Shown piece after piece: positions 5,977 through 27,339 of a DNA stretch of 39,034 nucleotides. The stretch comes from a virus. The DNA lies in IMG/VR virus record IMGVR_UViG_3300048837_000156, positions 1 through 39,034 of that record. The stretch is one strand, 5' to 3'. The notes under the pieces were generated by a model that had not been told where the DNA came from, ran no database searches, and saw only the letters and a list, made by a program, of their open reading frames with translations. Made by a program: the position numbers and the translations under genes. Position 1 is the stretch's first letter. The number at the start of each line of letters is the position of its first letter.

Positions 5977-6766
5977 CCTGACCGAATTCGAGGCGGAACT
6001 GGCGCGCACGATGGCCGCCACTCCGCTGGCGGTGTCCGAGAACGGTGGCGCGATCCTGCCGCTGCCGCCGGGCTATACGATCACCGATCTTGAGGCTTTT
6101 CAGGGTCGGCCCAACAGGATGCGCGCGGATCATGTGTTCCGCGATACCAGATCGCTGGCCCTCTATCTGGAACGCTACGCCGAGGCCAGCAGCCTGGCGC
6201 TGTCGGACCCGGAGAAACGGCTGATCCGGGTCGTGGTAGATTATCACGAGCACAAACCCCGCGCGGCACAGCACGGCGAGCACATTGCGAGTTTCTCGGC
6301 GCGGTTCACCGCCGAATATGCGGCGTGGCGCGCGATCAGCGGCAAGCTGAAGTCGCAGGTCGACGCGGGCATGTTTCTTGAGGATCGCGCGACCGATGTG
6401 ATCGAGCCGGACGCCGCCGCGATCATGGATATGGTGATGACCTTCGATGCGCTGAAGAAGGTCACCTTCCGCCAGTCGACTCGCCTTCACGATGGCCAGC
6501 GGCAGTTCACTTATTCCGAAGAAAACGAGGCACGCGGCAATGTCACCCTGCCTGCGCGGATCATGCTGCTGCTGCCGATCTTCGAGGGACAGGACCCCGA
6601 GCGGATCATGGTGCGGGTGCGCTACCGGATCGAGGACGGCAGCCTGAAGTTCCAGTTCGACATCGCCGATCAGAAGCTGGTCGAGGATGAGGCGTTCCGC
6701 CGTTGCGAGGATGCTCTGGCCGTCGATGCGCCGTCCGGGCTGCTGATCCTTCGAGCCAGTCTCTGA
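5969..6766 (+). CDS. DUF2303 (YfdQ) family protein
   Basis: The protein has 265 aa. The LPPGYTITDLEAFQGRPNRM segment, FRDTRSLALYLERY, VVVDYHEH, and the long beta-rich C-terminal part (ARIMLLLPIFEGQDPERIMV) match the YfdQ/DUF2303 family found in many prophages. The function of the family is not established. It sits in the early/replication operon between unknown small genes and rusA. The start overlaps the previous gene. Confidence 0.85.
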   Translation: MADLTEFEAELARTMAATPLAVSENGGAILPLPPGYTITDLEAFQGRPNRMRADHVFRDTRSLALYLERYAEASSLALSDPEKRLIRVVVDYHEHKPRAAQHGEHIASFSARFTAEYAAWRAISGKLKSQVDAGMFLEDRATDVIEPDAAAIMDMVMTFDALKKVTFRQSTRLHDGQRQFTYSEENEARGNVTLPARIMLLLPIFEGQDPERIMVRVRYRIEDGSLKFQFDIADQKLVEDEAFRRCEDALAVDAPSGLLILRASL

Positions 6767-6768
6767 CG

Positions 6769-7113
6769 ATGACGCGGATCGTGCTGCCATGGCCGCCGGC
6801 CGCGCTACAGCCCCACGCCAAGGGCAGCAGATGGCCGAAGATCAGGGCGACCAAGGCCTATCGGCAGCAGGCGTTCTGGCTGGCGAAGGCGGCGGGCGTT
6901 GCGGCTGATCCGGCCGCGATCCTGGTCGTGACCTATCACCCGCCGGATCGCGCCCGGCGGGACTGCCAGAACATGCACGGTCGCACAAAGGCGGCGATTG
7001 ACGGCATCGCCGACGCCATGGGCTGCGACGACAACGGGTTTCGCGTCCGGTTTCCGGACAGCTTCGGCGCAGTCGTGAAGGGCGGCGCGATCATCGTGGA
7101 GGTTTCGGCATGA
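6769..7113 (+). CDS. rusA: RusA-family Holliday-junction resolvase
   Basis: The 114-aa protein begins MTRIVLPWPP, 2 nt after the DUF2303 stop. It has the RusA layout: early beta-strand and NAKGSRW-like region (HAKGSRWPK), D65 and N68 in RRDCQN, K74, D78 in KAAIDGIADAMG, and D87-D88 before GFRVRF. RusA dimers cut four-way DNA junctions in a metal-dependent way, resolving recombination or replication branches before packaging. Confidence 0.85.
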   Translation: MTRIVLPWPPAALQPHAKGSRWPKIRATKAYRQQAFWLAKAAGVAADPAAILVVTYHPPDRARRDCQNMHGRTKAAIDGIADAMGCDDNGFRVRFPDSFGAVVKGGAIIVEVSA

Positions 7114-15490: not shown

Positions 15491-17443
15491 ATGGATCGCG
15501 CCTACGCCACCCTTGAGATCAAGGGCATGGATGATTCCGGCACGATTACCGGGATCGCCAGCACACCCAGTGCTGATCGCATGGATGACATTGTTCTTCC
15601 GGATGGCGCTGTCTACAAGCTGCCGCTGCCGCTTCTGTGGCAGCACGATCATTCGGACCCGATTGGTGAGATCACTTCGGCCAAGGTAACGGCCAAGGGG
15701 ATCGAGATCGTCGGCAAGGTGGTGCTCGGCGTCACGGATGAAATCGATCGTTACTGGAAGCTGCTGAAGGCCGGGCTTGTGCGCGGTCTGTCGATTGGCT
15801 TCCGAGGACTTGACGTTGAGCAGATCGAAGGATCGTGGGGCGTCCGCTTCAAGCGGTGGGAATGGCTGGAGTTGTCGGTCGTAACCATTCCCGCGAATGC
15901 CGAGGCGACCATCGCCACGGTCAAGGAATACGCAGCCAAGCCCGCCGCGACCGGCATTGGCAAGGCTGCGGCCACTCCCGGCGTCTCGGGAAAACCCATG
16001 AAACCCGTTTCCCTGAGGCCCAAGGAGGCCAAAACAATGAAAACCCTGTCTGAGCAGATCGCTGCCTTCGAGGCCAAGCGCGCTGCATCGCAAGCTCGCA
16101 TGGAAGAGCTGCAGAATGCTGCGGTCGAACGCGGCGAAAGCAAGTCTGCCGAGGAAAAGGAGGAATTCCAGACCCTCAAGGCCGAAGTGGCCGAGATCGA
16201 CTCCGAGCTGGCCGACCTTCGCGACCTGGAGAGAACCAAGGCCGCTGGCGCCAGGCCGGTGTCCGGTCAGAAGTCGGCGGATGGTTCGGCATCGCGCGAA
16301 GGGCTGGCCCCGGTGAAGGTCAAGGCCGCCAAGGCCGCGCCCGGCGTCGAGTTCGCCCGGCTGGCCCGCGTCAAGGCGCTCGCCAACATCGACCATGAAT
16401 CGCCGCTGGCGATTGCCAAGGCGCTCTATGGCGAGGATTCCCCCGTCGTCGGCGTGCTCACGAAAGGCAACGTGGTCGCGGGTTCCTCGGTATCCGGCAC
16501 GTGGGCGGCCGACCTGGTGGGGGCGGAGACTGCCGTCTATGCCGATTTTGCCGAATACCTGCAGCCGATGACCATCATCGGCAAGTTCGGCAGCGGTGGC
16601 ATTCCGAGCCTGATGCGCATTCCGTTCCGCACGCCGCTGATCCTGGAGACGGGCGTTCCGACCGGCTACTGGGTCGGGGAAGGCAAGCCGAAGCCGGTCA
16701 GCGCCGGGGCCTACGATCGGACGACGCTGGACGAGCTGAAGTTGGCGGCAATCTCGGTAGTCACCGAGGAACTGCTGCGGAAATCGAGTCCGTCTGCCGA
16801 CGCGCTGCTGCGGAACAGCCTTGCCCGCGCCGTGATTTCCACCATCGACGCGACGTTCATCGACCCGGCCGTTCCAGCGTCTTCGGGCGTTTCCCCGGCG
16901 TCGATCACCAACGGTGTGTCGGCCATTGCGTCGAGCGGCAATGATGCCGATGCGATCCGCGAGGACTTGCGGGCGCTCTGGGGGACGTTCATCGCTGCGA
17001 ACAACCCGCCGACCAGCGCCGTCTACATCATGTCGTCGATGACGGCGCTGGCGCTTTCGCTGATGGTGAACCCGCTGGGCCAAGCCGAATTCCCCGGCAT
17101 CACCATGGCCGGCGGCACGTTCCAGGGCATCCCCGTGATCACCTCGGAATACCTGTCGGCGGTCTCGGCGGGCGGCTTTGTCGTTCTGGCGAACGCCAGC
17201 GACATCTACTTCGGCGACGAAGGGGGCGTGAGTGTCGATATGTCGCGAGAGGCATCGCTGCAGATGCTGGACAACCCGACCAATGACACGGTGACGCCGA
17301 CAGCGACGAGCATGGTTTCGATGTTCCAGACGAACTCGGTTGCGTTCCGCGCCGAGCGGATCCTGAACTGGAAGAAACGGCGCGCGTCGGCGGTGGCGGT
17401 CCTCGATGAAGTGAATTGGGGCATGCCGGCTGCGTCGGTCTGA
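15491..17443 (+). CDS. Prohead protease-major capsid protein fusion (HK97 fold)
   Basis: The 650-aa protein starts MDRAYATLEI after TAGGAGG. Residues 1-150 are an HK97-type (S78) prohead protease: H52 in LLWQHDHSDPIGEI, S101 in LVRGLSIGF, and the VTIPANAEAT end. Residues about 183-270 are a charged coiled coil (FEAKRAASQARMEELQNA), the scaffold-like delta domain. Residues about 330-640 are the HK97 capsid fold (YADFAEYLQPMTIIGKFG, GYWVGEGKPKP, TMAGGTFQGIPVITSEYL). Protease and capsid are normally separate genes. An in-frame internal start at M183 has its own ribosome site, so two products are likely. Confidence 0.93.
   Translation: MDRAYATLEIKGMDDSGTITGIASTPSADRMDDIVLPDGAVYKLPLPLLWQHDHSDPIGEITSAKVTAKGIEIVGKVVLGVTDEIDRYWKLLKAGLVRGLSIGFRGLDVEQIEGSWGVRFKRWEWLELSVVTIPANAEATIATVKEYAAKPAATGIGKAAATPGVSGKPMKPVSLRPKEAKTMKTLSEQIAAFEAKRAASQARMEELQNAAVERGESKSAEEKEEFQTLKAEVAEIDSELADLRDLERTKAAGARPVSGQKSADGSASREGLAPVKVKAAKAAPGVEFARLARVKALANIDHESPLAIAKALYGEDSPVVGVLTKGNVVAGSSVSGTWAADLVGAETAVYADFAEYLQPMTIIGKFGSGGIPSLMRIPFRTPLILETGVPTGYWVGEGKPKPVSAGAYDRTTLDELKLAAISVVTEELLRKSSPSADALLRNSLARAVISTIDATFIDPAVPASSGVSPASITNGVSAIASSGNDADAIREDLRALWGTFIAANNPPTSAVYIMSSMTALALSLMVNPLGQAEFPGITMAGGTFQGIPVITSEYLSAVSAGGFVVLANASDIYFGDEGGVSVDMSREASLQMLDNPTNDTVTPTATSMVSMFQTNSVAFRAERILNWKKRRASAVAVLDEVNWGMPAASV
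16022..16039 (+). promoter_or_regulatory. Internal ribosome binding site and start for stand-alone capsid precursor
   Basis: AAGGAGG (16022-16028) stands 8 nt before an in-frame ATG (16037-16039, residue M183 of the fusion). Translation from here gives a 468-aa protein with delta domain plus capsid but no protease, the size and layout of a normal HK97-type capsid precursor. This would let a few fusion molecules carry the protease among many capsid subunits. Seen: site, spacing and frame. Inferred: use. Confidence 0.7.
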
Positions 17444-17454
17444 TTCTGACAACG

Positions 17455-17482
17455 GGCCGGGCGGGTGACTGCCCGGCCTTTT
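17455..17482 (+). terminator. Rho-independent terminator after capsid gene
   Basis: An 8-bp GC stem (GGCCGGGC 17455-17462 with GCCCGGCC 17471-17478) with an 8-nt loop is followed by TTTT. It lies between the capsid gene and the next late gene and would lower expression of downstream genes relative to capsid. Downstream genes need read-through or antitermination. Confidence 0.75.
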
Positions 17483-17496
17483 CATAGGAGGCCGCG

Positions 17497-17727
17497 ATGA
17501 AACAGAACTACGGCGACCGCATGATGCGCGCGCGCGATCCGCGGTTTGCCAAGATCGCCGAGCGCATGGGCTACAAGCGCCGCGACATGGTGGCGGAAAC
17601 GGCCGTCGACGAGACGGCGGCGCTCCGGGCCGAGTATGAGCGTGTGATCGGCAAGCGCCCGTTCATGGGCTGGGACGCGGCCAAGCTGCGCGAGAAGATC
17701 GAAGCATTTGCCAAGGGGTCCGAATGA
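17497..17727 (+). CDS. Small hypothetical head-module protein
   Basis: The 76-aa protein starts MKQNYGDRMMRARDPRFAKI after AGGAGG. It is helical and strongly charged, with a KRPFMGWDAAKLREKIEAF C-terminal helix. It is a phage protein of unknown function placed behind the capsid gene. Its stop overlaps the next start. Confidence 0.7.
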   Translation: MKQNYGDRMMRARDPRFAKIAERMGYKRRDMVAETAVDETAALRAEYERVIGKRPFMGWDAAKLREKIEAFAKGSE

Positions 17728-17981
17728 TGGCTGTGACACGCTCGCTTGATTCAACTTCGACCGGCAGCAAGCTCCGAGCCGTCACGCCGCACGTGAGCGA
17801 CCCGCTTCCTGGCGGCCCTTGTCGCGCCCTTTATGTCGGCGGCTCTGGAAGCCTTGTCATCGTTGCATCGGGCGATGAAGACGCAGTCACATTGACGGCG
17901 GTTCCGGCCGGAATACTGGCTATCTCTGTTTCGCATGTGCGCGCCACGTCTACGGCAACCGGCATTGTGGCGATCTACTGA
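17724..17981 (+). CDS. Head spike base-like protein (RcGTA Rcc01079 type)
   Basis: The 85-aa protein starts in an ATGA overlap. The beta-rich pattern CRALYVGGSGSLVIVASG, VTLTAVPAGILAISVSHV and ATSTATGIVAIY matches, in my recognition, the family named after Rhodobacter capsulatus GTA spike-base protein Rcc01079. In the GTA this protein sits on the head and carries spikes that bind the host capsule. Its place between capsid and portal agrees with a head surface role. Assignment is from pattern memory only. Confidence 0.65.
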   Translation: MMAVTRSLDSTSTGSKLRAVTPHVSDPLPGGPCRALYVGGSGSLVIVASGDEDAVTLTAVPAGILAISVSHVRATSTATGIVAIY

Positions 17982-17984
17982 GCT

Positions 17985-19310
17985 ATGCGCTTTCCCGCCC
18001 TGTTCCGCAGCAAGGCCATTGCCCCGGTCGCGCAATCGGCTGGCGCATGGTATCCTGTGTTTGAGTCATATGCGGGCGCGTGGCAGCAGAATGTCGTCGT
18101 TTCGCGCGATGCGGTGCTCGCCAACCCCTATATCTTCGCCTGCCAGACATTGATCGCCCGCGATATCGCCAAGCTGCGCGTGCGGTTGGTCGAGAAATCC
18201 GGGCGCATCTGGCGCGAGACGTCCAGCCCGGCATTCTCGCCGGTCCTGCGAAAGCCGAACCACTTCCAGACCCGCAACCAGTTCTGGGAAAGCTGGATGC
18301 TGTCCAAGCTTGGGCGCGGTAATGCCTATGTGCTGAAGCAGCGCGACAATCGCGGCATCGTGGTCGCGCTCTATGTGCTGGATCCGAACCGGGTGACGCC
18401 GCTGGTATCCGATGACGGGCAGGTCTTCTACGACCTTGCCGCCGACAACCTGCCGGGCCTGATGCAACAGGTTACGGTGCCGGCACGCGAAATAATTCAT
18501 GACCGTTGGAATTGCCTTTATCACCCGCTTGTCGGGTTGTCGCCGATCTTCGCGAACGGGATCGCTGCAACGCAGGGCCTTCGCATTCAGGACAACTCCG
18601 CGACGTTCTTCTCGAATCAGTCGCGGCCGGGCGGGATTCTCACCGCGCCGGGCAAGATCAGCGACGACACGGCTGCGCGGCTGAAGGCGGCGTTTGACGC
18701 CAACTATTCCGGCGCGAACGCGGGCAAGATCGCTGTGGTCGGTGACGGCCTGACCTTCGCGCAGCTATCGGTCACTGCCGAGGATTCGCAGCTGGTCGAG
18801 CAACTGAAATGGACGGCTGAGGCGATTGCCGCGACCTACCACGTGCCGCTCTACAAGATCGGCGCCGGGCCGATCCCGACCGCTGGCAACGTCCAGACGC
18901 TCAATCTCGAATACTACAGCCAGTGCCTTCAGAGCCTGATCGAGGATGCCGAGACGTTGCTCGATGAAGGCCTCGGCCTTGATGGCTTCAGCGTCGGGAC
19001 CGAGTTCGATACCGAAAACCTCCTGCGGATGGACAGCAAGACGCTGATGGAGACGCTGAAGTTGGCCGCCAGCATCATGTCTCCGAACGAGCAGCGCGAG
19101 CGGCTTGATCTTGGGCCGGTCAAAGGCGGAGAGGCTCCGCTGTCGCAGGAGCAGAACTGGTCTCTTGCCGATTTGGCTCAGCGCAGCATCTTGCCGGCGG
19201 CCCCCACGCAAGCTGAACCGTTGCAGCTTCCGGCACCGGAAGAAACCGATCTTCCGCCGGAGGCTGCCAAGGCGGTCTGGCGGGACTTATTGCGGGAAAA
19301 GGCGGCATGA
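17985..19310 (+). CDS. Portal protein, HK97 family
   Basis: The 441-aa protein starts MRFPALFRSKAIAP. The HK97 portal pattern runs through it: ANPYIFACQTLIARDIAKL, FWESWMLSKLGRGNAYVLKQ, YVLDPNRVTPL, VPAREIIHDRWN, LVGLSPIFANGIAATQGL, FFSNQSRPGGILT, WTAEAIAATYHVPLYKIG, and NLEYYSQCLQSLIEDAE. It forms the dodecameric ring at one head vertex through which DNA passes. The Pro-rich C-terminal tail is variable. It sits after the capsid gene, whereas HK97 has portal first. Confidence 0.95.
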   Translation: MRFPALFRSKAIAPVAQSAGAWYPVFESYAGAWQQNVVVSRDAVLANPYIFACQTLIARDIAKLRVRLVEKSGRIWRETSSPAFSPVLRKPNHFQTRNQFWESWMLSKLGRGNAYVLKQRDNRGIVVALYVLDPNRVTPLVSDDGQVFYDLAADNLPGLMQQVTVPAREIIHDRWNCLYHPLVGLSPIFANGIAATQGLRIQDNSATFFSNQSRPGGILTAPGKISDDTAARLKAAFDANYSGANAGKIAVVGDGLTFAQLSVTAEDSQLVEQLKWTAEAIAATYHVPLYKIGAGPIPTAGNVQTLNLEYYSQCLQSLIEDAETLLDEGLGLDGFSVGTEFDTENLLRMDSKTLMETLKLAASIMSPNEQRERLDLGPVKGGEAPLSQEQNWSLADLAQRSILPAAPTQAEPLQLPAPEETDLPPEAAKAVWRDLLREKAA

Positions 19311-19966
19311 AGCACGAAGAAATAGCGATGCTGGCCGCCGAAGTCGGTCCTGTGGTCCGCGAACTATTGGACAAGGCGACGGGACCGCTGATATCTCGAA
19401 TTGCCGCTCTGGAAAAGCAGATCGCCGATGCCCCCACCCCGCGCGACGGCAAGGACGGCGCGCGCGGCGAGAAGGGCGAAGCCGGCGCGGATGGCAAGGA
19501 CGGCGCGCCCGGTGAAAATGGCGCACCCGGTCGGGACGGGCTCGACGTGGCCGATCTGTTCAAGGCCGATGGTGGCCGTCTGATCGCGGTTCTGTCGGAC
19601 GGACGGACGAAAGACCTCGGCCAGTTTGTCGGCAAGGACGGCGCGCCGGGTCGGGACGGTTTGGGGTTCGATGACATGACCCTGGAAGCCGATGAACATG
19701 GCCGCCCGGTGGCGAAGTTCTCGCGCGGTGACGAGACGAAGTCGATCACGCTCGCGGGCGTGTATCGCGGCGTCTACAAGGCCGAGGACGATTACCGCAA
19801 GGGCGATAGCGTGACCTTCGGCGGCAGTCTGTGGACCGCGCTGGAAGATACCGCAGACCGCCCGGACGGCGGCAAGGGCTGGCAACTCAGCGTCAAGAAG
19901 GGCCGCGACGGCAAGGACGGCGAGATGAAGGCCCCGCCCGAGCCGAAGCCGGTGAAGGTGGGCTGA
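19307..19966 (+). CDS. Collagen-like virion protein
   Basis: The 219-aa protein starts in an ATGA overlap. Residues 1-45 are helical (a trimerisation-type coiled coil is plausible). Residues about 46-80 are an unbroken run of some eleven G-X-Y triplets ([18 protein letters not shown] and onward), followed by two shorter G-X-Y stretches. The C-terminal part ([45 protein letters not shown]) resembles small carbohydrate-binding modules of chitin-binding type. Collagen-like trimers are common in phage fibres. Lying beside the spike-base-like gene and portal, it may form a head or neck fibre. Confidence 0.75.
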
Positions 19967-20292
19967 TGCCGGACCTCGTGACGCTTGAAGAGGTGAAGAT
20001 CGCACTGCGCGTCTATCACGACGATGACGACGCAGACCTGACGCAGATCATCGCCGCCGCATCGGAGGAGGTGATCGCCTATCTCGACACGCGCGCCGAC
20101 GCGATCCTCGATCTCGACAGCGCGGGCGAACTGACGAGCGGCAGCGTGGTGCCGGATCGCGTGAAGCGCGCCACCAAGATCGTCTGCCAGCACCTCTACG
20201 AAGGCGACGACACGATGAAGGGCCGCCCCGGTGGACTGCCCTACCGCGCCGAAATGCTGCTGTATCGCCTTGTCGATCCGCCTTGCGCCTGA
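19966..20292 (+). CDS. Head-tail connector, HK97 gp6-like
   Basis: The 108-aa protein starts in a TGATG overlap. [20 protein letters not shown], then [20 protein letters not shown] and the [20 protein letters not shown] helix are typical of gp6-like adaptor proteins, which form a ring under the portal. Length is usual for the family. Confidence 0.88.
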
Positions 20293-20896
20293 CTGGTGGC
20301 CCGCCTGGGAAGGCGAGACTCTGGTCATCGTGGCCTCCGGGCCGTCTGCCAAGACTGCGCCGCTTGAACTGGCGAAGGGCCGGGCGAAGGTGATCGCGAT
20401 CAACACGAGCTGGCGGCTTTGCCCGTGGGCCGACATGCTGTTTGCCTGCGATTACAACTGGTGGCTGCGAACGGAAGGCTGGCAGGATTTCACGGGGCTG
20501 AAGCTGACGATCGACGCCAAGGCAGCGCGAAAATGGGGCCTTGGCTACGTTCATTGCATGAAGCCGGACGACCGGGTGTTTCTTGAGCCGAAGGGGACGG
20601 TCGGATGGGGCGGAAACAGCGGCTTTCATTGCGTTAATCTTGCGATCCAGTTCGGCGTGCGCCGGGTGCTACTGGTCGGATACGACATGACGCTTGACTA
20701 CGGTCTGCATTGGCACGGGGCGCACCCGAGCGGGATGCACAACCCGAGGGCGGATAACGTAAGACGCTGGCGGCACGCGGTCGACAGCGCGGCGAAGGTG
20801 GCGGCGGCGCAGGGGGTGGAAGTGATCAACTGCAGCCCTAGTAGCGCATTGACGAAATACCCGAAGATGGGCTTCGCGGAGGCGCTGGGGTGCTGA
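20270..20896 (+). CDS. MptE/DUF115-like protein of a sugar-type cassette
   Basis: The protein has about 208 aa. No ATG is available: TTG 20270 fits the conserved N-terminus ([19 protein letters not shown]), and GTG 20231 is an alternative with a better ribosome site. Motifs are [10 protein letters not shown] (Rossmann-like loop), [47 protein letters not shown] and GLHWHGAHP. The pattern resembles 6-hydroxymethylpterin-kinase/DUF115-like proteins, which are related to nucleotide-sugar enzymes. Substrate unknown. It begins a three-gene insert between connector and head-closure genes. Confidence 0.65.
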
Positions 20897-21537
20897 CCGT
20901 CGCCTGCGTCCTTCGGAGTGGGGGGATTTACACCCCCGAGTGGGTCGAGAAGTTGCAGCGCGGCGTTGAGATGCACTTGAGTCACAAGCATCGCTTCGTC
21001 TGCTTGTCCGATGTGGACGTGCCATGCGAGCGGATCGCTCTGGAAGATGATTGGCCGGGCTGGTGGTCGAAAATATGCCTGTGGCATCCCGCTGCCGGGT
21101 TGACCGGGCCGACGATCTATTTCGACCTTGACACTCTGATCGTCGGGTCGCTTGACGCCCTTGCGGCCTACCCGCACCGCTTCACGATGGCGCATGAGTT
21201 CTACCGCCCCGATCGCATGTGCAGCACGGCAATGGCATGGTCGGGGGATTGGTCGGAAATCTGGCAGCAGATGAAGGCCGATCCGGCGGCTGTCATTGCA
21301 GCCTACGACCGGCCGCGGAAGGACAAGCGGATCGGCGATCAGGCATTCATCGAGGATTGCCTCAGCGGGGCGAAGATCGACACCTTCCGCGATCTGTTCG
21401 GCGAGACGAGCATTGCCAGCTACAAGGTGCACTGCAAGCGGGGCATCCCGAGCGGGGCGGCGGCGGTTTCGTTCCACGGCCGTCCGAAGATGCACGAGGC
21501 CGGCGGTTGGGTGCAGAAGATGTGGGAATCGGCATGA
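20890..21537 (+). CDS. Glycosyltransferase (GT-A, DxD)
   Basis: The 215-aa protein uses GTG at 20890, overlapping the upstream gene by 7 nt. GT-A features: N-terminal strand [23 protein letters not shown], and the metal/nucleotide-sugar motif IYFDLDTLIVG (FDLD), then a distal SFHGRPKMHE His segment of GT8-like enzymes. It would move a sugar from a nucleotide donor onto an unknown acceptor (virion protein, DNA base or host glycan). Confidence 0.8.
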   Translation: MLTVACVLRSGGIYTPEWVEKLQRGVEMHLSHKHRFVCLSDVDVPCERIALEDDWPGWWSKICLWHPAAGLTGPTIYFDLDTLIVGSLDALAAYPHRFTMAHEFYRPDRMCSTAMAWSGDWSEIWQQMKADPAAVIAAYDRPRKDKRIGDQAFIEDCLSGAKIDTFRDLFGETSIASYKVHCKRGIPSGAAAVSFHGRPKMHEAGGWVQKMWESA

Positions 21538-22151
21538 GCGAGTTTGTGCAGCACGCCGGCTTCTGGTGGCCCGCCGACGACACGCATTGCCACTCGGTGA
21601 TCCATGACGAGCTGGCCGATCTGGATGCCGCTCTGGCGCTGGTCCCCGGCCGCAAGGTGGCGGTTCAGGCCGGCGGCAATGTCGGGGTCTGGGCTGCGAA
21701 GCTGGCTCGCGAATTCGAGACGGTCATGACCTTCGAGCCAGTAGCGGAAAACTACCAGTGCCTTGTCAAGAACGTGCCGACCAACGTGCGATTCTGGCGG
21801 GTCGGGCTGGGCGACAAGCCCGGCAAGGTCGGGATGACCATAGTTCCTGGAAATGCCGGGGCGCATTACATCGGCGGGGCTGGCGAGATCGAGATCATCA
21901 CGCTGGATAGCCTCGATCTTCCGGGTTGCGATTTCTTGTGCCTTGACGTCGAAGGCGCCGAGCCGCTGGCGCTGCACGGCGCGGCCGAAACGATCCGTAA
22001 GTTTCGTCCGGTGGTGATGATGGAAGAGAAAGGCTTGTCGGAACGCTACTTCGGCATCCGCCGCGGCGCCGCAGAGCGATGGCTGGTCCGTGAGCATGGC
22101 TATCGGGTGGCGATGAAGGTCCGCAAGGATTTGATCCTGGTGCCGGCATGA
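21534..22151 (+). CDS. FkbM-family methyltransferase
   Basis: The 205-aa protein starts MSEFVQHAGFWWPADD in an ATGA overlap. The Rossmann SAM-binding site reads AVQAGGNVGVWAAKLA and ETVMTFEPVAENYQCL; later LDSLDLPGCDFLCLDVEGAE is the FkbM signature. FkbM enzymes usually O-methylate sugars or polyketides. Together with the glycosyltransferase directly upstream this suggests addition and capping of a methylated sugar. Confidence 0.85.
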   Translation: MSEFVQHAGFWWPADDTHCHSVIHDELADLDAALALVPGRKVAVQAGGNVGVWAAKLAREFETVMTFEPVAENYQCLVKNVPTNVRFWRVGLGDKPGKVGMTIVPGNAGAHYIGGAGEIEIITLDSLDLPGCDFLCLDVEGAEPLALHGAAETIRKFRPVVMMEEKGLSERYFGIRRGAAERWLVREHGYRVAMKVRKDLILVPA

Positions 22152-22522
22152 AGGCGGGCGATCTTTACCAGCGCGTTGCCTTCGACGCCCCGAAGGCAGT
22201 GCCTGACACGCATGGCGGAACGGAAGTCGGGTGGGACACCGACAACGCGGTAACGGCGCGGGCGCATTTTCTATACCTGCGCGGCGGCGAGACGGTTCAG
22301 GCGGCGCGGCTGCAAGGCAGGCAGCCTATCGTTGTCACGATCCGGAACAGTGAGGATGCTCGGTCGATCACGGCGGGCTGGAGAATGAGGGACATGAACG
22401 CCGGATCGCTCAACAGTGGTGACGTGTGGTCAGGCCCGACATTCAACGTCCGCACTGATCCAGTGCCGAGCGACGATCGGCGGTGGCTGGAAATCACGGT
22501 AGAGGGCGGGGTGGCGGTGTGA
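22148..22522 (+). CDS. Phage head closure protein
   Basis: The 124-aa protein starts in an ATGA overlap. MKAGDLYQRVAFDAPKAVPD, GTEVGWDTDNAVTARAHFLY, GGETVQAARLQGRQPIVV and the C-terminal WLEITVEGGVAV match head-closure (SPP1 gp16-like) proteins, a beta-barrel ring below the adaptor that seals DNA in the head. Confidence 0.85.
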   Translation: MKAGDLYQRVAFDAPKAVPDTHGGTEVGWDTDNAVTARAHFLYLRGGETVQAARLQGRQPIVVTIRNSEDARSITAGWRMRDMNAGSLNSGDVWSGPTFNVRTDPVPSDDRRWLEITVEGGVAV

Positions 22523-22674
22523 TGTTGAAGAATGTCGTGTTTCAGGCAGATGACTTTGCCCGCAAGGCGGCGCTGATGGAAGCCGAACGCAACGCAATAT
22601 GTCAGGACGTGGTGGCGATTGCCGTCCTTTATGCGGCTGCGCTTGCGGCGTTTCTCAAGTATCTGTTTTCCTGA
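22522..22674 (+). CDS. Small membrane protein in tail module
   Basis: The 50-aa protein starts MLKNVVFQADDFARKAALME in a TGATG overlap and ends with the hydrophobic helix VVAIAVLYAAALAAFLKYLF. It is translationally coupled on both sides. No family is recognised. A membrane protein between head-closure and tail-completion genes is unexpected for a structural role. Confidence 0.65.
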   Translation: MLKNVVFQADDFARKAALMEAERNAICQDVVAIAVLYAAALAAFLKYLFS

Positions 22675-23081
22675 TGGGCAGTGCATCCGTCGATCTGCAA
22701 GACCTGATCTTTGCCAGACTGAAGGCGGATTCAGCGGTTGGCGCGATCCTCGGGGATCGCATTTACGACATGCCGCCCGGTGGCGCGGACTATCCACACA
22801 TAACGTTCGGCCCGTCCGATTATGCGCCGGACGATCCTGATTGCATCAGCGGGAGAACTGAAACGCTGCAACTGGATATCTGGCACCGGGATCAGGGCAG
22901 GCTCTGGCCGTGTCGCAAGACGGTGGATGCCGTCAAGGATGCGCTGCACCTCTATACCGGCGCGCTGGCGACGGCCGCACTGGTTGAAATGCGGGTGACG
23001 CTGGCGCGGACGATGGCTGACCCGGACGGCATCACGGCGCACGGCGTTGTGCAGGTAGCGGCGCTGATCGAGGAAGCCTAA
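22674..23081 (+). CDS. Tail completion protein, DUF3168 (gp17-like)
   Basis: The protein has 135 aa and starts in a TGATG overlap. DLQDLIFARLKADSAVGAIL, then RIYDMPPGGADYPHITFGP, ETLQLDIWHRDQGR and VDAVKDALHLY match DUF3168. This family joins tail tube to neck. The last 4 nt overlap the end of the oppositely oriented lipoprotein gene. Confidence 0.88.
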   Translation: MGSASVDLQDLIFARLKADSAVGAILGDRIYDMPPGGADYPHITFGPSDYAPDDPDCISGRTETLQLDIWHRDQGRLWPCRKTVDAVKDALHLYTGALATAALVEMRVTLARTMADPDGITAHGVVQVAALIEEA

Positions 23082-23410
23082 AACGGTTCGCAGGGTCCGA
23101 AGAAATCGACCGCCTTGAACTGGCCGTTGACGATCTTGCCGCCGAACATCTTGAACCCGACATAGCCGCCCATTCGGTTCTTGCCGTTGACTTCGCCGCA
23201 GACGCGCCGCTCGGATATGCCGTCTGTGGTCGTAATGTCGGAAGCGCGAACGTTACGGAATTGGGCGCTGCCTGGGTCGAAGAAGTCACGGGTCACGGTT
23301 GACTGGATCTGCGCCATTTGGGCTGCGGACAGGGCAATCGGTTTCGTTGCTGCGATGTTGGACATGACGCAGCCGCTCAGGAGAAACGCGGCGAATAGCA
23401 GTGTTTTCAT
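23078..23410 (-). CDS. Lipoprotein moron, opposite to late operon
   Basis: The 110-aa protein starts MKTLLFAAFLLSGCVMSN. The signal peptide and lipobox LSGC (C14) predict a lipid-anchored envelope protein. The mature part has a helix (LSAAQMAQIQSTVTRDFFDP) and a beta-rich domain (RRVCGEVNGKNRMGGYVGFK, FKAVDFFGPCEPF) with two Cys that may form a disulfide. It stands alone on the minus strand amid late genes, convergent with the tail-completion gene. This is typical of a moron expressed from its own promoter; superinfection exclusion or host-surface change is inferred. Confidence 0.82.
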   Translation of the reverse strand: MKTLLFAAFLLSGCVMSNIAATKPIALSAAQMAQIQSTVTRDFFDPGSAQFRNVRASDITTTDGISERRVCGEVNGKNRMGGYVGFKMFGGKIVNGQFKAVDFFGPCEPF

Positions 23411-23432
23411 CGGGGGCCTCGGAGGTTGAAAT

Positions 23433-23618
23433 ATGTGGGTTCGATTCACCGATGAATTCTGGTGGCGTGTCAAGCCGCAAGTGAAGATCAGATACCGCCC
23501 CGGCTCGGCGGTCAACGTTCGCCGCACATGCGGCGAAAGGGCAATCGCTGACGGCAAGGCTGTCGCGGCTGCGAATCCACGGGCAAAGCCCATCACCGCC
23601 GAAACCGGCAAAATCTAG
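23433..23618 (+). CDS. Small conserved phage protein (61 aa)
   Basis: The protein starts MWVRFTDEFWWRVKPQVKIR after GGAGG with 7-nt spacing. The shape, a short beta-rich FT..F....P.V.I.Y segment followed by NVRRTCGERAIADGKAVAAA, is known to me from small genes before the tail-tube gene in alphaproteobacterial phages. Function unknown; the role may be to bind or modify tail assembly. Its first bases overlap the divergent moron promoter. Confidence 0.7.
   Translation: MWVRFTDEFWWRVKPQVKIRYRPGSAVNVRRTCGERAIADGKAVAAANPRAKPITAETGKI
23444..23473 (-). promoter_or_regulatory. Promoter candidate for lipoprotein moron
   Basis: Minus strand: TTGACA (23468-23473), an 18-nt spacer and GTGAAT (23444-23449), about 34 nt before the ATG at 23410. 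The -35 is perfect and the -10 matches 3 of 6. It lies inside the 5' end of the rightward gene at 23433. Confidence 0.45.
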
Positions 23619-23627
23619 GAACCCAAA

Positions 23628-24068
23628 ATGTCCGCACCGAAAACCGCGCGCTTCGGCGCGATGATCATTTCCCTGTCCAACGGCGCATCGCCTCCCACGT
23701 TCACTGCGCCGTGCGGGTTCACGTCGAAGTCGCTGAGCCTGTCGAAGAACCTGTCCGAAGTTTCGATCCCCGACTGTGACGATCCCGACGCGCCGATCTG
23801 GCTGGGCCGTGATGTGCAGAGCCTGACCGCGAGCGTCACCGGTGAAGGCGTGCTTGCGGCGGAGGCGGTTCCGACTTGGCAGGATGCCTTCGACAGCACG
23901 GCCAGCGTCGAGGTGCAGGTCGAGATTACCTTTGCCACCGGCGTGCTGACCTACCAGGGCTTCATGCACCTTGAAAGCATGGAGATCACTGCCGAACAGG
24001 GCGGGCGGGTGCAGATGAGCATCTCGATGCAGTCGGACGGCGAACTCGTCGGAACGTGGGGAACCTGA
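23628..24068 (+). CDS. Major tail tube protein
   Basis: The 146-aa protein starts MSAPKTARFGAMIISLSNGA. It is beta-rich, with GRDVQSLTASVTGEGVLAAE, VEVQVEITFATGVLTYQGFM and MEITAEQGGRVQMSISMQSD, the pattern of siphophage/GTA tail tube proteins whose hexamers stack into the tail. Its place before the chaperones and tape measure supports this. Confidence 0.85.
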   Translation: MSAPKTARFGAMIISLSNGASPPTFTAPCGFTSKSLSLSKNLSEVSIPDCDDPDAPIWLGRDVQSLTASVTGEGVLAAEAVPTWQDAFDSTASVEVQVEITFATGVLTYQGFMHLESMEITAEQGGRVQMSISMQSDGELVGTWGT

Positions 24069-24637
24069 TGCGGGACGGGTCGGTCGAGTTCGAATGGGCG
24101 GGTTCGGCCCGCCTGTTCCGGCTTGGCTGGGGCGAACTGATCGCGCTGCAGGAACATTGCGATGCCGGGCCATATTACATTCTGGCGCGGATTGGGGCGG
24201 GTGGCTGGCGGGTCCGCGACTTGCTGCACACCATCCGCCTCGGGCTGATCGGTGGCGGCTATTCCGCGCCTGAGGCCCGCGCGCTGGTGGCGGAGCACGT
24301 CGAGGGCAATCCGCCGACGCAGAACGTGCTGGCGGCTCAGATCATACTCGCGGCGGCGTTGGTGGGGGCAGACGATGAGGCCCCCGGCAAGGAGCGGAAG
24401 TCATCGGATCGCCCAGCCGCCGAGCTTCGCAACGGCAAGATCAAGATCGCCGGCCTGTTCGGGGCCGGGGCCGCGATGGGGTTCACGCCCGACGATGTGA
24501 AGCGGTGTTCGGTGTGGGAATTCAGCGCGGCGCTGAGCGGTTACGTCGACGCCAACACGCCACCGGACAAGGGGCTTGCCGACGATGAGCGCGACAACCT
24601 ATGGGAAATGGTCCAAGCCAGGATGGCAATGAACTGA
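24068..24637 (+). CDS. GTA-type tail assembly chaperone (TAC-11 like), long form
   Basis: The 189-aa protein starts in a TGATG overlap. Residues 1-100 match the gene-transfer-agent chaperone family: FEWAGSARLFRLGWGELIAL, GGWRVRDLLHTIRLGLIGGG, PEARALVAEHVEGN. Residues about 135-189 (AMGFTPDDVKRCSVWEFSAA, DERDNLWEMVQAR) look like the second chaperone segment which other phages make by frameshift. So this may be a natural G-T-like fusion in one frame. It keeps tape measure protein soluble during tail assembly. Confidence 0.8.
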   Translation: MRDGSVEFEWAGSARLFRLGWGELIALQEHCDAGPYYILARIGAGGWRVRDLLHTIRLGLIGGGYSAPEARALVAEHVEGNPPTQNVLAAQIILAAALVGADDEAPGKERKSSDRPAAELRNGKIKIAGLFGAGAAMGFTPDDVKRCSVWEFSAALSGYVDANTPPDKGLADDERDNLWEMVQARMAMN

Positions 24638-25029
24638 TGGCGGTCAAGAACCTCGACAAGTTGCTGCGCCGGTTCCATGCGTTGCCGGTTTCGATACAGA
24701 CGGCCGCGCAATTGGCTCAGGACGAAATGGCGACGAAGATGGTTGCCGAAATGAAGGTGCTTGTCCCGGTTGATCAGGGCAAGTTGTCGGCGTCGATCCG
24801 CAAGGAACGTCGCGGGCCGATCAGTGTGGCGATTCTGGCGGGCGATGAGACGACTGAAGTTCAGGTCGGCGGCACCAAGCTGCAGAACGCTGCGCTGCAG
24901 GAATACGGCACCAAGAAGATGCCGGCCAACCCGTTCTTCGGCCCGGTGGTCAGGGTCAACCGGCAACTGGCGCAGCGGCGCATTCGGGCGGCCGCAGTCA
25001 AGGCGGCACGGGCGGAGTGGGGCGTATGA
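24637..25029 (+). CDS. HK97 gp10-like tail/neck protein
   Basis: The 130-aa protein starts in a TGATG overlap. LVPVDQGKLSASIRKER, VQVGGTKLQNAALQEYGTKK and MPANPFFGPVVRVNRQLAQR match the HK97 gp10 family (tail terminator/neck component). In most siphophages this gene lies between head-closure and DUF3168 genes. Here it has moved between two chaperone genes. Confidence 0.87.
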   Translation: MAVKNLDKLLRRFHALPVSIQTAAQLAQDEMATKMVAEMKVLVPVDQGKLSASIRKERRGPISVAILAGDETTEVQVGGTKLQNAALQEYGTKKMPANPFFGPVVRVNRQLAQRRIRAAAVKAARAEWGV

Positions 25030-25370
25030 GCGATAAACCCCGCGGACAAGTCACGCTGCAATGGGCCGGCGGCGAGCATGAATTCCGCCTGACATGGGCG
25101 GCGCTGCGGTCGGTCGAGACGGCAACCGACATGGGTCCGCTGGCGCTGTTGGGGGCGTTGCAGGGCGGCACATGGCGGCTCGACCACGCTGCTACGGTGC
25201 TGCGGCACGGGCTGATCGGCGCCGGGATGGAGCCGCTTGAGGCGAAGTCGCTGCTGCTGAAAACCGCCGATATCTGCACTCCGGTTGAAATGGTGAAACC
25301 TGCAACGCTGGCACTGGCAGCGGCGCTGTTCGGGCTTTCGGATGACGTGAAGGACGCCGACAATGGCTGA
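25026..25370 (+). CDS. GTA-type tail assembly chaperone, short paralogue
   Basis: The 114-aa protein starts MSDKPRGQVTLQWAGG in an ATGA overlap. It is clearly related to the first 100 residues of the chaperone at 24068: LQWAGGEHEFRLTWAAL, then DMGPLALLGALQGGTWRLDH and LRHGLIGAGMEPLEAKSLLL. It lacks the second segment. It directly precedes the tape measure gene, with which it overlaps by 8 nt. Confidence 0.8.
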   Translation: MSDKPRGQVTLQWAGGEHEFRLTWAALRSVETATDMGPLALLGALQGGTWRLDHAATVLRHGLIGAGMEPLEAKSLLLKTADICTPVEMVKPATLALAAALFGLSDDVKDADNG

Positions 25371-27339
25371 ACCTCTCGAATTCGAGGTGGACGTGCAGAT
25401 CAAGAAACTGGTGCAGTCGCTTGCGCAGGCAGAGGCGCGGGTAAACAAAACCGCCACCCGCATCGACGCTGATTTCCGGCGCACCAATGCGCGAGTGTCG
25501 ACCGGGGTTGCACAGTCTGCGGCGGGTTTCGCGCGGCTGGGACAGGTCACCGGCGCGCAACGGTTCGTGCTTCAAAACACCGCCAACCAGCTTGGTGATA
25601 TCGCGGTGCAGCTGGAGACCGGCGCGTCTGCATCGCGGGTGTTCGGACAGCAGCTGCCGCAGATTCTGGGCGGATTCGGTGCGCTTGGCGGCACGCTAGG
25701 GCTGGTCGCGCCGCTGCTGGGCACGGTGGCGGCGCTTGGGATTCCGCTGGCGGCGATGTTCTTGGCGACGGGCAAGGGCGTCGAGGAAGCAGCGGTTAAG
25801 GTCGAGACGTTTCAGGAACGCCTGAGCGATGCGACGGCAGCGCTGGGGCGGGCAGAGGACGCCCTGCGGCTTGCGGCGGCCGGGGCGGCCGTCGACGTTG
25901 CGGCGCGCTATCACACGCTCAACGCCGAGATTCAGAAGCTGGTCGGCAGTCTGGCAGAGTTGGAAGTCTTTGGCGCAAGGCAGCAGGGCGACGAGCTGAT
26001 CAGTGGCATCCTTCCGGGCCTCACGGCGTCGAAGGAGCAGCTCCAGCTGGCAACCGTGGAATATGACAAGCAACTCGCCCGGCTTGGAGAGATTTTCGGC
26101 CTGCAACAGGGCGTGGCGACAATGGATCAAAGCCGGTTCGATGCCTTGGAAAGGGAACGGATCGCCATTGAAGCGCAGTTGCGGGCCAGCGAAGGCTTGC
26201 GCGATGAATTGTCGAAGATCGGGGATGCGCTGAACCTTTTGCCAGAAGAGGCGGCCCGGTTCGCAGGACATATCATCGATGCGCAAGAGGCGATGAAGCG
26301 CGGCGACTTTGAAGCGGCGGCGGATGCGCTGAGGGCGGCGCAGGATTACGCCAGATCGCTGGGCTTCACGATCGAAGACGAGATAGTCCGAAACCTGATC
26401 CAGGCGGAGGACTTTACCCGGCAGACCGCGGCGCGAATGGGCGATGTGCAGATTGCCGCTGATGGCGTTGTCAGTTCGACCGCTGGCATAGTCGCTAACA
26501 TCAGTTCGGCGGCGAACCAAGCCGCGCGGCTCGCCGGGAACTTGGCCGAATCCGCTAAAAACATCAACTTCGACGCCAGCGATCTGGCGCCGGCAACGTC
26601 GCCGCGGCCGCGCCCTGCCCCGGCCCTGATAGGCGAAGGCGGCGCCGTGGCGAGTGCCGGGGGCGGCAGAGGTGGCGGCGGTGGCGGCGGCGTCAACCCG
26701 CTTGTTGCCCAGCTGGAGACAATCCGCAGATCGCTGATGACGCAGGAACAAGTGGAACTCGAGTCGTTCGGAAAGCAGCAGGAACAATTGCAGGCGGCGC
26801 TGGAGCAGAAGCTGCTGACCCAGCAGGAATACAATGCGCTGATGGAAGATGCACAGCGCCAGCACCAGCAGAAGATGAGCAATCTGGAGCGGACGCAGCA
26901 AAACCAGCGTTTGTCGGCCTATGCCGGGGCGCTGGGCGATCTGTCGTCGCTTATGGAAACGAATAACAAGAAGCTGTTCGCGATCGGCAAGGCGGCGGCA
27001 ATCGCCGAGGCGACGGTCAGCGGCTATCAGGCGGCGGTCGAGGCATGGCAGAAAGGCATGGAAATCGGCGGCCCGCCGGTTGCCGCGGCTTTCGCGGCGG
27101 CATCTATTGCCAAGACCGGGGCGCTGATTTCCAAGCTGGCATCATCCAGCATCGGCGGCGCGGGCGGCAATTCAGATACCGGCGGCGGGGCGGTCGCGCC
27201 AACGCAGGCCGGGACTTACCTCAACTTCACCTTCACCGGCGGCTATTCGACGCCGGAACAGATGGGGCGCTTCATGGTGGCGTCGCTCAATTCGGCGATC
27301 GAGAATGGCGCGACCATCCGCGGCGCGAGGATTGTCTGA
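25363..27339 (+). CDS. Tail tape measure protein
   Basis: The 658-aa protein starts MAEPLEFEVDVQIKKLVQSL. Long helical stretches flank a hydrophobic part (about 105-140: LGGTLGLVAPLLGTVAALGI). A glycine-rich linker (GGGRGGGGGGGVNPL, about 430-445) and Gln-rich coiled coil (EQKLLTQQEYNALMEDAQR) follow, ending with the IGKAAAIAEATVSGYQAAVE segment common to lambda-type tape measures. At about 0.15 nm per residue the tail would be near 100 nm (rule of thumb, not measured). Confidence 0.9.
   Translation: MAEPLEFEVDVQIKKLVQSLAQAEARVNKTATRIDADFRRTNARVSTGVAQSAAGFARLGQVTGAQRFVLQNTANQLGDIAVQLETGASASRVFGQQLPQILGGFGALGGTLGLVAPLLGTVAALGIPLAAMFLATGKGVEEAAVKVETFQERLSDATAALGRAEDALRLAAAGAAVDVAARYHTLNAEIQKLVGSLAELEVFGARQQGDELISGILPGLTASKEQLQLATVEYDKQLARLGEIFGLQQGVATMDQSRFDALERERIAIEAQLRASEGLRDELSKIGDALNLLPEEAARFAGHIIDAQEAMKRGDFEAAADALRAAQDYARSLGFTIEDEIVRNLIQAEDFTRQTAARMGDVQIAADGVVSSTAGIVANISSAANQAARLAGNLAESAKNINFDASDLAPATSPRPRPAPALIGEGGAVASAGGGRGGGGGGGVNPLVAQLETIRRSLMTQEQVELESFGKQQEQLQAALEQKLLTQQEYNALMEDAQRQHQQKMSNLERTQQNQRLSAYAGALGDLSSLMETNNKKLFAIGKAAAIAEATVSGYQAAVEAWQKGMEIGGPPVAAAFAAASIAKTGALISKLASSSIGGAGGNSDTGGGAVAPTQAGTYLNFTFTGGYSTPEQMGRFMVASLNSAIENGATIRGARIV

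Follow-up and report, generated by a model that had tools for sequence, protein, structure and literature searches.

Two tail assembly chaperone genes of unlike ancestry at a mosaic phage tail junction: a probable short and long form pair without frameshift

Gene organization of the tail junction

The window analyzed here is the whole stretch of 39,034 nucleotides of the IMG/VR virus record IMGVR_UViG_3300048837_000156 (positions 1 to 39,034). Its tail junction carries two genes of the PF11836 family, called here P0001 and P0002, which both sit between the major tail protein gene and the tape measure gene. The genes of the junction are given below, types A and B referring to the two groups of relatives described in the section on ancestry.

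22148..22522, + strand: head completion protein, on the B-type side of the junction (PF05521, E=1e-14; best relative L185/L264, 68% identity)
22674..23081, + strand: tail terminator, the last resident B-type gene ahead of the foreign block (PF11367, E=2e-26)
23433..23618, + strand: small MWVRF protein, opening the A-type block (its best relatives, all of A type, reach 62 bits vs 29 in B-type)
23628..24068, + strand: major tail (tube) protein, A type (PF06199, E=3e-23)
24068..24637, + strand: P0001, tail assembly chaperone, long form GT, A type (PF11836, E=1.2e-21); the G domain (24068-24385) is fused in frame to the T domain (24422-24625)
24637..25029, + strand: HK97-gp10-like neck/tail completion protein, B type (PF04883, E=1e-4; TIGR01725, E=4e-11)
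25026..25370, + strand: P0002, tail assembly chaperone with the G domain only, short form G, B type (PF11836, E=3.5e-19)
25363..27339, + strand: tape measure protein, B type (PHROG 9483, E=6e-39)

The gp10-like gene scores 23.5 bits with PF04883 (cut-off 21.4) and 43.7 bits with TIGR01725 (cut-off 30.8). In most relatives gp10 precedes the major tail gene and here it stands between the two chaperone genes, so that the preliminary description of this DNA was right to place it between the copies and out of its usual position.

Two features outside this gene series can be mentioned. Upstream, three genes separate the connector from the head completion gene (window 20231-22151); the last one encodes an FkbM-family methyltransferase (TIGR01444) and relatives of two of the three occur in a small number of the fetched loci. 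Just before the A-type block, a minus-strand ORF (window 23078-23611; PHROG 2320, unknown function) opposes the tail genes and, because its relatives are found only in A-type loci, it may have come with the foreign block.

Homology and predicted fold of P0001 and P0002

The two proteins, of 189 amino acids for P0001 and 114 for P0002, both start with ATG and match PF11836 (Phage_TAC_11; tail assembly chaperone, GTA-gp10) with 77 and 69 bits, respectively, for a curated cut-off of 27.8. Compared directly by BLASTP, they show 33% identity over 84 amino acids (E=3e-15), which bears out the kinship claimed in the preliminary description for these two ORFs, whose coordinates were also right. Their local alignment score is 164, against a mean of 30 and a maximum of 57 for 2000 shuffles, and a profile-profile comparison, in which the two alignments have some rows in common, gives a probability of 100 and E=4e-51. 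The motifs WAG, FRL-W, D-GP, GG-WR/GTWR and GLIG-G, which had been noticed in the same order in both products, stand in register in the alignment. In AlphaFold models, whose mean pLDDT values are 88 and 90, two strands are followed by five helices in both proteins; a lack of structural similarity between the N-terminal domains, named beforehand as the observation that would speak against their relationship, was thus not found. From the sequences and the predicted folds, we conclude that P0001 and P0002 are homologous tail assembly chaperones.

The segment present only in P0001 covers residues about 119-187 and is predicted to form four helices after a low-confidence linker (residues 104-111). 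The two genes therefore encode proteins which have the G domain in common and one of which is extended by T, as in the lambda-type G/GT pair. P0002 keeps the residues that are invariant in its family alignment, and its ORF is intact and overlaps the genes on both sides.

Among BFVD structures, P0001 matched a 190-amino-acid protein of RcapNL and, weakly, the GT protein of N15. For either G domain, searches of solved structures with Foldseek and VIA-align returned nothing significant, a result which does not make the fold new, and profile searches of PDB sequences likewise gave nothing significant. On the side of nomenclature, PHROG 8985 and the PF11836 description name the G domain a tail tube protein, and this name is also found in phage annotations.

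The T domain and the -1 frameshift in relatives

In relatives, the PF11836 ORF ends after about 110-150 codons and the counterpart of the P0001 C-terminus is then encoded in the -1 frame. When the fetched loci were scanned with a T profile which includes P0001, T was found adjoining G in 235 genes; it lies in the -1 frame in 222 of them, all with an open overlap, and in 180 of these 222 the T frame has no start codon. A slippery heptamer, mostly GGGGGA(A/G) and located at codons 99-118, is present in the overlap of 192 of the 196 distinct genes, the background elsewhere in the same genes being 11 of 17640 codons (0.06%). In the 42 further loci fetched later, some of whose contigs had been seen already in the first set, T is in the -1 frame in every case. 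Since lambda-like G / G-T systems are arranged in just this way, with T placed after G and in the -1 frame, the extra segment of P0001 corresponds to the T domain; it is present in P0001 and absent from P0002, as the preliminary description had it for the C-terminal extension.

In the annotated records of the frameshifting PF11836 phages, the T frame is omitted or named as a separate hypothetical protein. PHROG 18467, of unknown function, matches the T domain. The short ORF following the chaperone gene in PF11836 phages is thus the T domain (PHROG 18467), and annotations which omit or separate it miss the frameshift product.

Gene transfer agents were considered as a source for the fused form and rejected; their T-like segment is an ORF of its own with an ATG. 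This organization was seen in three PF11836 loci which are probably gene transfer agents (L255, L256 and L259), one of which matches PF09550. PF09550 (Phage_TAC_6) is matched by the gene transfer agent T-like protein at 9e-14, while the phage T has no Pfam match, and the profiles of these T segments resemble each other only weakly (E=0.035).

Loss of the shift site in P0001 and of the T domain in P0002

P0001 runs from G into T without a change of frame, and the T profile (P0001 included) scores 120 bits in the G frame. No slippery heptamer was found at the place where relatives have it:

24383..24391, + strand: conserved slippery place in P0001, which reads CCC GGC AAG and holds no slippery site; the frames are joined by an indel downstream

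Being fused in frame and devoid of a slippery site, P0001 would make only the long GT. P0002 stops at the end of the G domain, the tape measure gene begins inside its last codons, and no T match was found between P0002 and the tape measure gene; lacking T, P0002 would make only the short G. Judging from their sequences, the two genes look like a dedicated long form and a dedicated short form.

Two other readings of P0001 have to be weighed at this point. According to the first, the in-frame fusion is due to a one-base error in the assembly; P0001 would then be an ordinary frameshift gene that makes both forms, with P0002 as a surplus copy. Taking out one base can indeed return T to the -1 frame, and a slippery heptamer appears in two of the trial removals, at codon 98 or 99. 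Either of these would break up the GA(P/D)DExxG stretch conserved in the G frame, which makes a single sequencing error unlikely; removals downstream of this stretch give no slippery site, when 192 of 196 relatives have one. We therefore hold this reading to be very unlikely. According to the second, P0001 makes its short form by an inverted -1 shift, through a GGGGGCA heptamer at codon 99 and a -1 stop at codon 102. Both the heptamer and the stop (at 24376) are present, the product would end just past the G domain, and a likelier case of the same device is offered by the loci L014-L018, where A AAA AAA AAA is accompanied by an early -1 stop. GGGGGCA is nevertheless outside the motif set counted in relatives, and the -1 stop falls within the GATGAG codons of the conserved Asp-Glu pair, where it is present in L003 too, so that it is probably incidental; we give this reading hardly any weight.

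Unlike ancestry of the two chaperone genes

The phylogeny of the chaperones was established on a set of 41 rows, a first tree of 124 rows having been spoiled by long branches. In the 41-row tree, P0002 falls in a B subclade with L181, L184, L185 and L187 (100/98), with a long branch of 1.4, and P0001 falls in clade A (97/91 and 99/94). The nearest relative of P0002 is the G of L181 (48% identity), which is a single-copy gene in another prophage. When P0001 and P0002 were held as sisters, the tree was rejected (p-AU 0.026).

These results bear on the proposal, made in the preliminary description, that a duplication replaces the frameshift. One half of it stands, because the frameshift of the relatives is missing here; the other half, a duplication within the phage in which one gene was copied from the other, with T lost or gained, finds an argument in the homology and closeness of the two genes, but it is opposed by their position in separate supported clades, each with the clade of its neighbours, by the rejection of the sister tree and by the single-copy nature of the nearest relative of P0002. 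A within-phage duplication is in our opinion most improbable.

The genes surrounding the chaperones follow the same partition. The tube gene of the window lies inside clade A of its own tree, in which the A/B split has a support of 100/99; it scores up to 238 bits in the A set vs 70 in the B set and has no significant match in L264. The gp10 gene groups with L181/L184/L185/L187 and L144 (100/99), the latter on a long branch beside it. The best relatives of the tail terminator are L181, L183 and L185, and those of the tape measure protein, whose start overlaps the end of P0002, are in the B set (22 loci in total). Gene by gene, the best relatives are of B type for the connector, the head completion protein and the terminator, of A type for the small MWVRF gene, the tube gene and P0001, then again of B type for gp10, P0002 and the tape measure gene.

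The nearest contig spanning the region, L264, is identical to the window at 77% for the terminase, 70% for the capsid, 83% for the portal, 68% for the head completion protein and 60% for the terminator, and at 43% for the N-terminal part of the tape measure protein. Its gene order is plain B: gp10 and a B tube gene come first, then one G whose T lies in the -1 frame, then the tape measure gene. The placements in clades A and B, together with this single-chaperone order of L264, therefore indicate that a foreign block of tube and chaperone genes became joined to the resident block of gp10, chaperone and tape measure genes. The simplest account of the sequences is that the A block (small gene, tube gene and GT) came to lie between the resident terminator and gp10, and that the resident tube gene and T were lost. 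The gp10 gene would look displaced because the foreign block stands in front of it, while it stayed with its own kin. The preliminary description had suggested a duplication arising with a rearrangement; the rearrangement is supported, but gp10, which belongs to the B clade, did not move alone, and what entered is a block with the foreign tube gene and P0001.

Searches of viral contigs for close relatives gave one weak match for gp10 and none for P0002 or the tape measure gene. A DNA search with the region 22100-27300 matched two Rhizobium phages, over part of the tube gene only, and nothing in plasmids. A contig of 4 kb, L263 (IMGVR_UViG_3300048590_000020), is 94-95% identical to positions 17435-21482 of the window and ends before the tail junction.

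Other loci with fused or duplicated chaperone genes

In-frame G-T fusions also exist in relatives with a single copy (L005, L012, L013, L014-L018, L162 and L164; L092 and L039, which look broken, were excluded from this count), and only one PF11836 match was found in each of the records or genomes searched. L014-L018 present CCT AAA AAA AAA AGC, their -1 frame soon meets a stop codon, and a short form could possibly be made there by an inverted -1 shift on the A run; in the other fused single-copy relatives no clear way to a short form was found. A single-copy fused gene may thus be able to do without a second G, unless its short form comes about in another way. Since such relatives exist, compensation by P0002 in the window is no more than likely.

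Loci with two copies were found in few places. L144 (contig JAQGLP010000573) has a tube gene with a frameshifting G/T (GGGAAAA), followed by a second G without T, gp10 and the tape measure gene. As it keeps the frameshift despite the second G, a second copy alone does not replace the shift. In L182 (G179; L182:4759-6315), a PF11836 gene without T precedes the tube gene, and the G after the tube gene is fused to a weakly T-like segment (best domain of 1.5 bits). Class-wide, 46 of 385 genomes have PF11836 matches over the cut-off, and two matches within 3 kb occur only in G179. Two copies are thus an uncommon state, and no rule can be drawn from three cases.

Some neighbouring observations concern less complete loci. 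At L280:300-5550, a capsid gene precedes three genes which are, in turn, weakly PF11836-like, gp10-like and tape-measure-like, and neither a tube gene nor a T could be recognised there; about 8 kb beyond, this contig bears another, complete head-tail module. The order second G, gp10, tape measure is common to L144 and the first of these two modules. In L354 and L355, around 6453-7027, about 130 bases match the G domain and the T domain follows further downstream, so that this chaperone gene may be interrupted or diverged.

A proposed working of the chaperone pair

Homology, domain make-up, unlike ancestry, block boundaries and the loss of the shift site are read directly from the DNA. The reading that we prefer, and consider fairly probable, is a mosaic join of two phage clades in which each chaperone form now comes from its own gene. 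This state with two separate genes probably came after an exchange of the tail-tube block.

In lambda, about 30 gpG are made per gpGT (PMC5009743); the partner of gpG, and of the G part of gpGT, is the tape measure protein, and T binds and recruits the tube protein (PMC5009743, PMC4493119). In TP901-1, a permanent G-T fusion leads to particles that look normal but are non-infectious (PMC4493119). From these partners in lambda, a division of labour can be proposed for the window, where each form has a gene of its own lineage next to it, the tube gene in the case of the long form P0001 and the tape measure gene in that of the short form P0002. P0002, with some P0001, would coat the tape measure protein of P0002's lineage; the T domain of P0001 would bring in the tube protein of P0001's lineage; the ratio of long to short form would be set by the expression of the two genes; and mixed P0001/P0002 complexes would bridge tube and tape measure. 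By analogy with these systems, we infer that both proteins are made, act in mixed complexes and are both needed. More tentatively, and with clearly less than even confidence, the two proteins could be regarded as an adaptor pair, in which a short G of the tape measure lineage and a long GT of the tube lineage let an unlike tube and tape measure assemble, the second chaperone being both the mark and the price of the swap and freeing the phage from the frameshift.

It could be objected that P0002 is a dispensable leftover of the resident tail module and that the fused P0001 works alone, as single-copy fused relatives might suggest; the long branch of P0002 could also mean decay or a changed role. 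Yet P0002 has kept the invariant residues of its family and a confident predicted fold, it is intact, overlaps both neighbours and adjoins a tape measure gene from the same lineage as itself. In TP901-1, moreover, a permanent fusion by itself yielded non-infectious particles (PMC4493119). We judge this possibility unlikely, if less so than the other alternatives weighed above.

If the two forms do come from the two genes of the mosaic join, the locus is of interest beyond this phage. The -1 frameshift producing short and long chaperones is among the most conserved decoding tricks of long-tailed phages; its split into two genes of unlike ancestry would be a natural experiment, in which the question of the ratio can be put apart from that of the frameshift. 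The P0001/P0002 pair would also let the rule that G matches the tape measure and T matches the tube be tested, and the case illustrates mosaic exchange across a junction of proteins that must fit each other.

Comparison with known systems

The closest parallel in arrangement is gpG/gpGT of lambda, the comparison being made by arrangement while the G domain of the window belongs to PF11836. In both, the genes are placed between the tube and tape measure genes and encode a short G and a long G-T with a common N-terminal domain, and the relatives of both window genes use a -1 frameshift. The window differs from lambda in that its two forms would come from two genes of unlike ancestry, with no shift site left and gp10 in between: a long form made by -1 frameshift at a slippery site is found in 222 of 235 relatives and not in the window. 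The frameshifting PF11836 siphophages of alphaproteobacteria (RHph_TM3_3_14B, RHph_X2_25, 16-3 and the prophages L181 and L185/L264) have homologous G and T domains and the same neighbours, but in them one gene gives both forms through a -1 frameshift.

Distinct genes for the short form and for the fused long form, without frameshift, are described in some T4-like phages (Vladimirov et al. 2022, as summarized in PMC10885494). The likeness concerns the architecture only, one short gene and one gene in which the short form is fused to a downstream part; these are contractile-tailed phages belonging to a different family, whereas the pair of the window would result from the joining of two lineages in a frameshift-using family. 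L144 is partly parallel, since its tube gene with G/T is likewise followed by a second G without T, gp10 and the tape measure gene, but its first copy still has a shift site and its order is second G, gp10, tape measure, vs gp10, second G, tape measure in the window. In the open-licence literature searched, we found no report of a chaperone pair from two lineages in a frameshift-using family. All the parts of the locus belong to known families.
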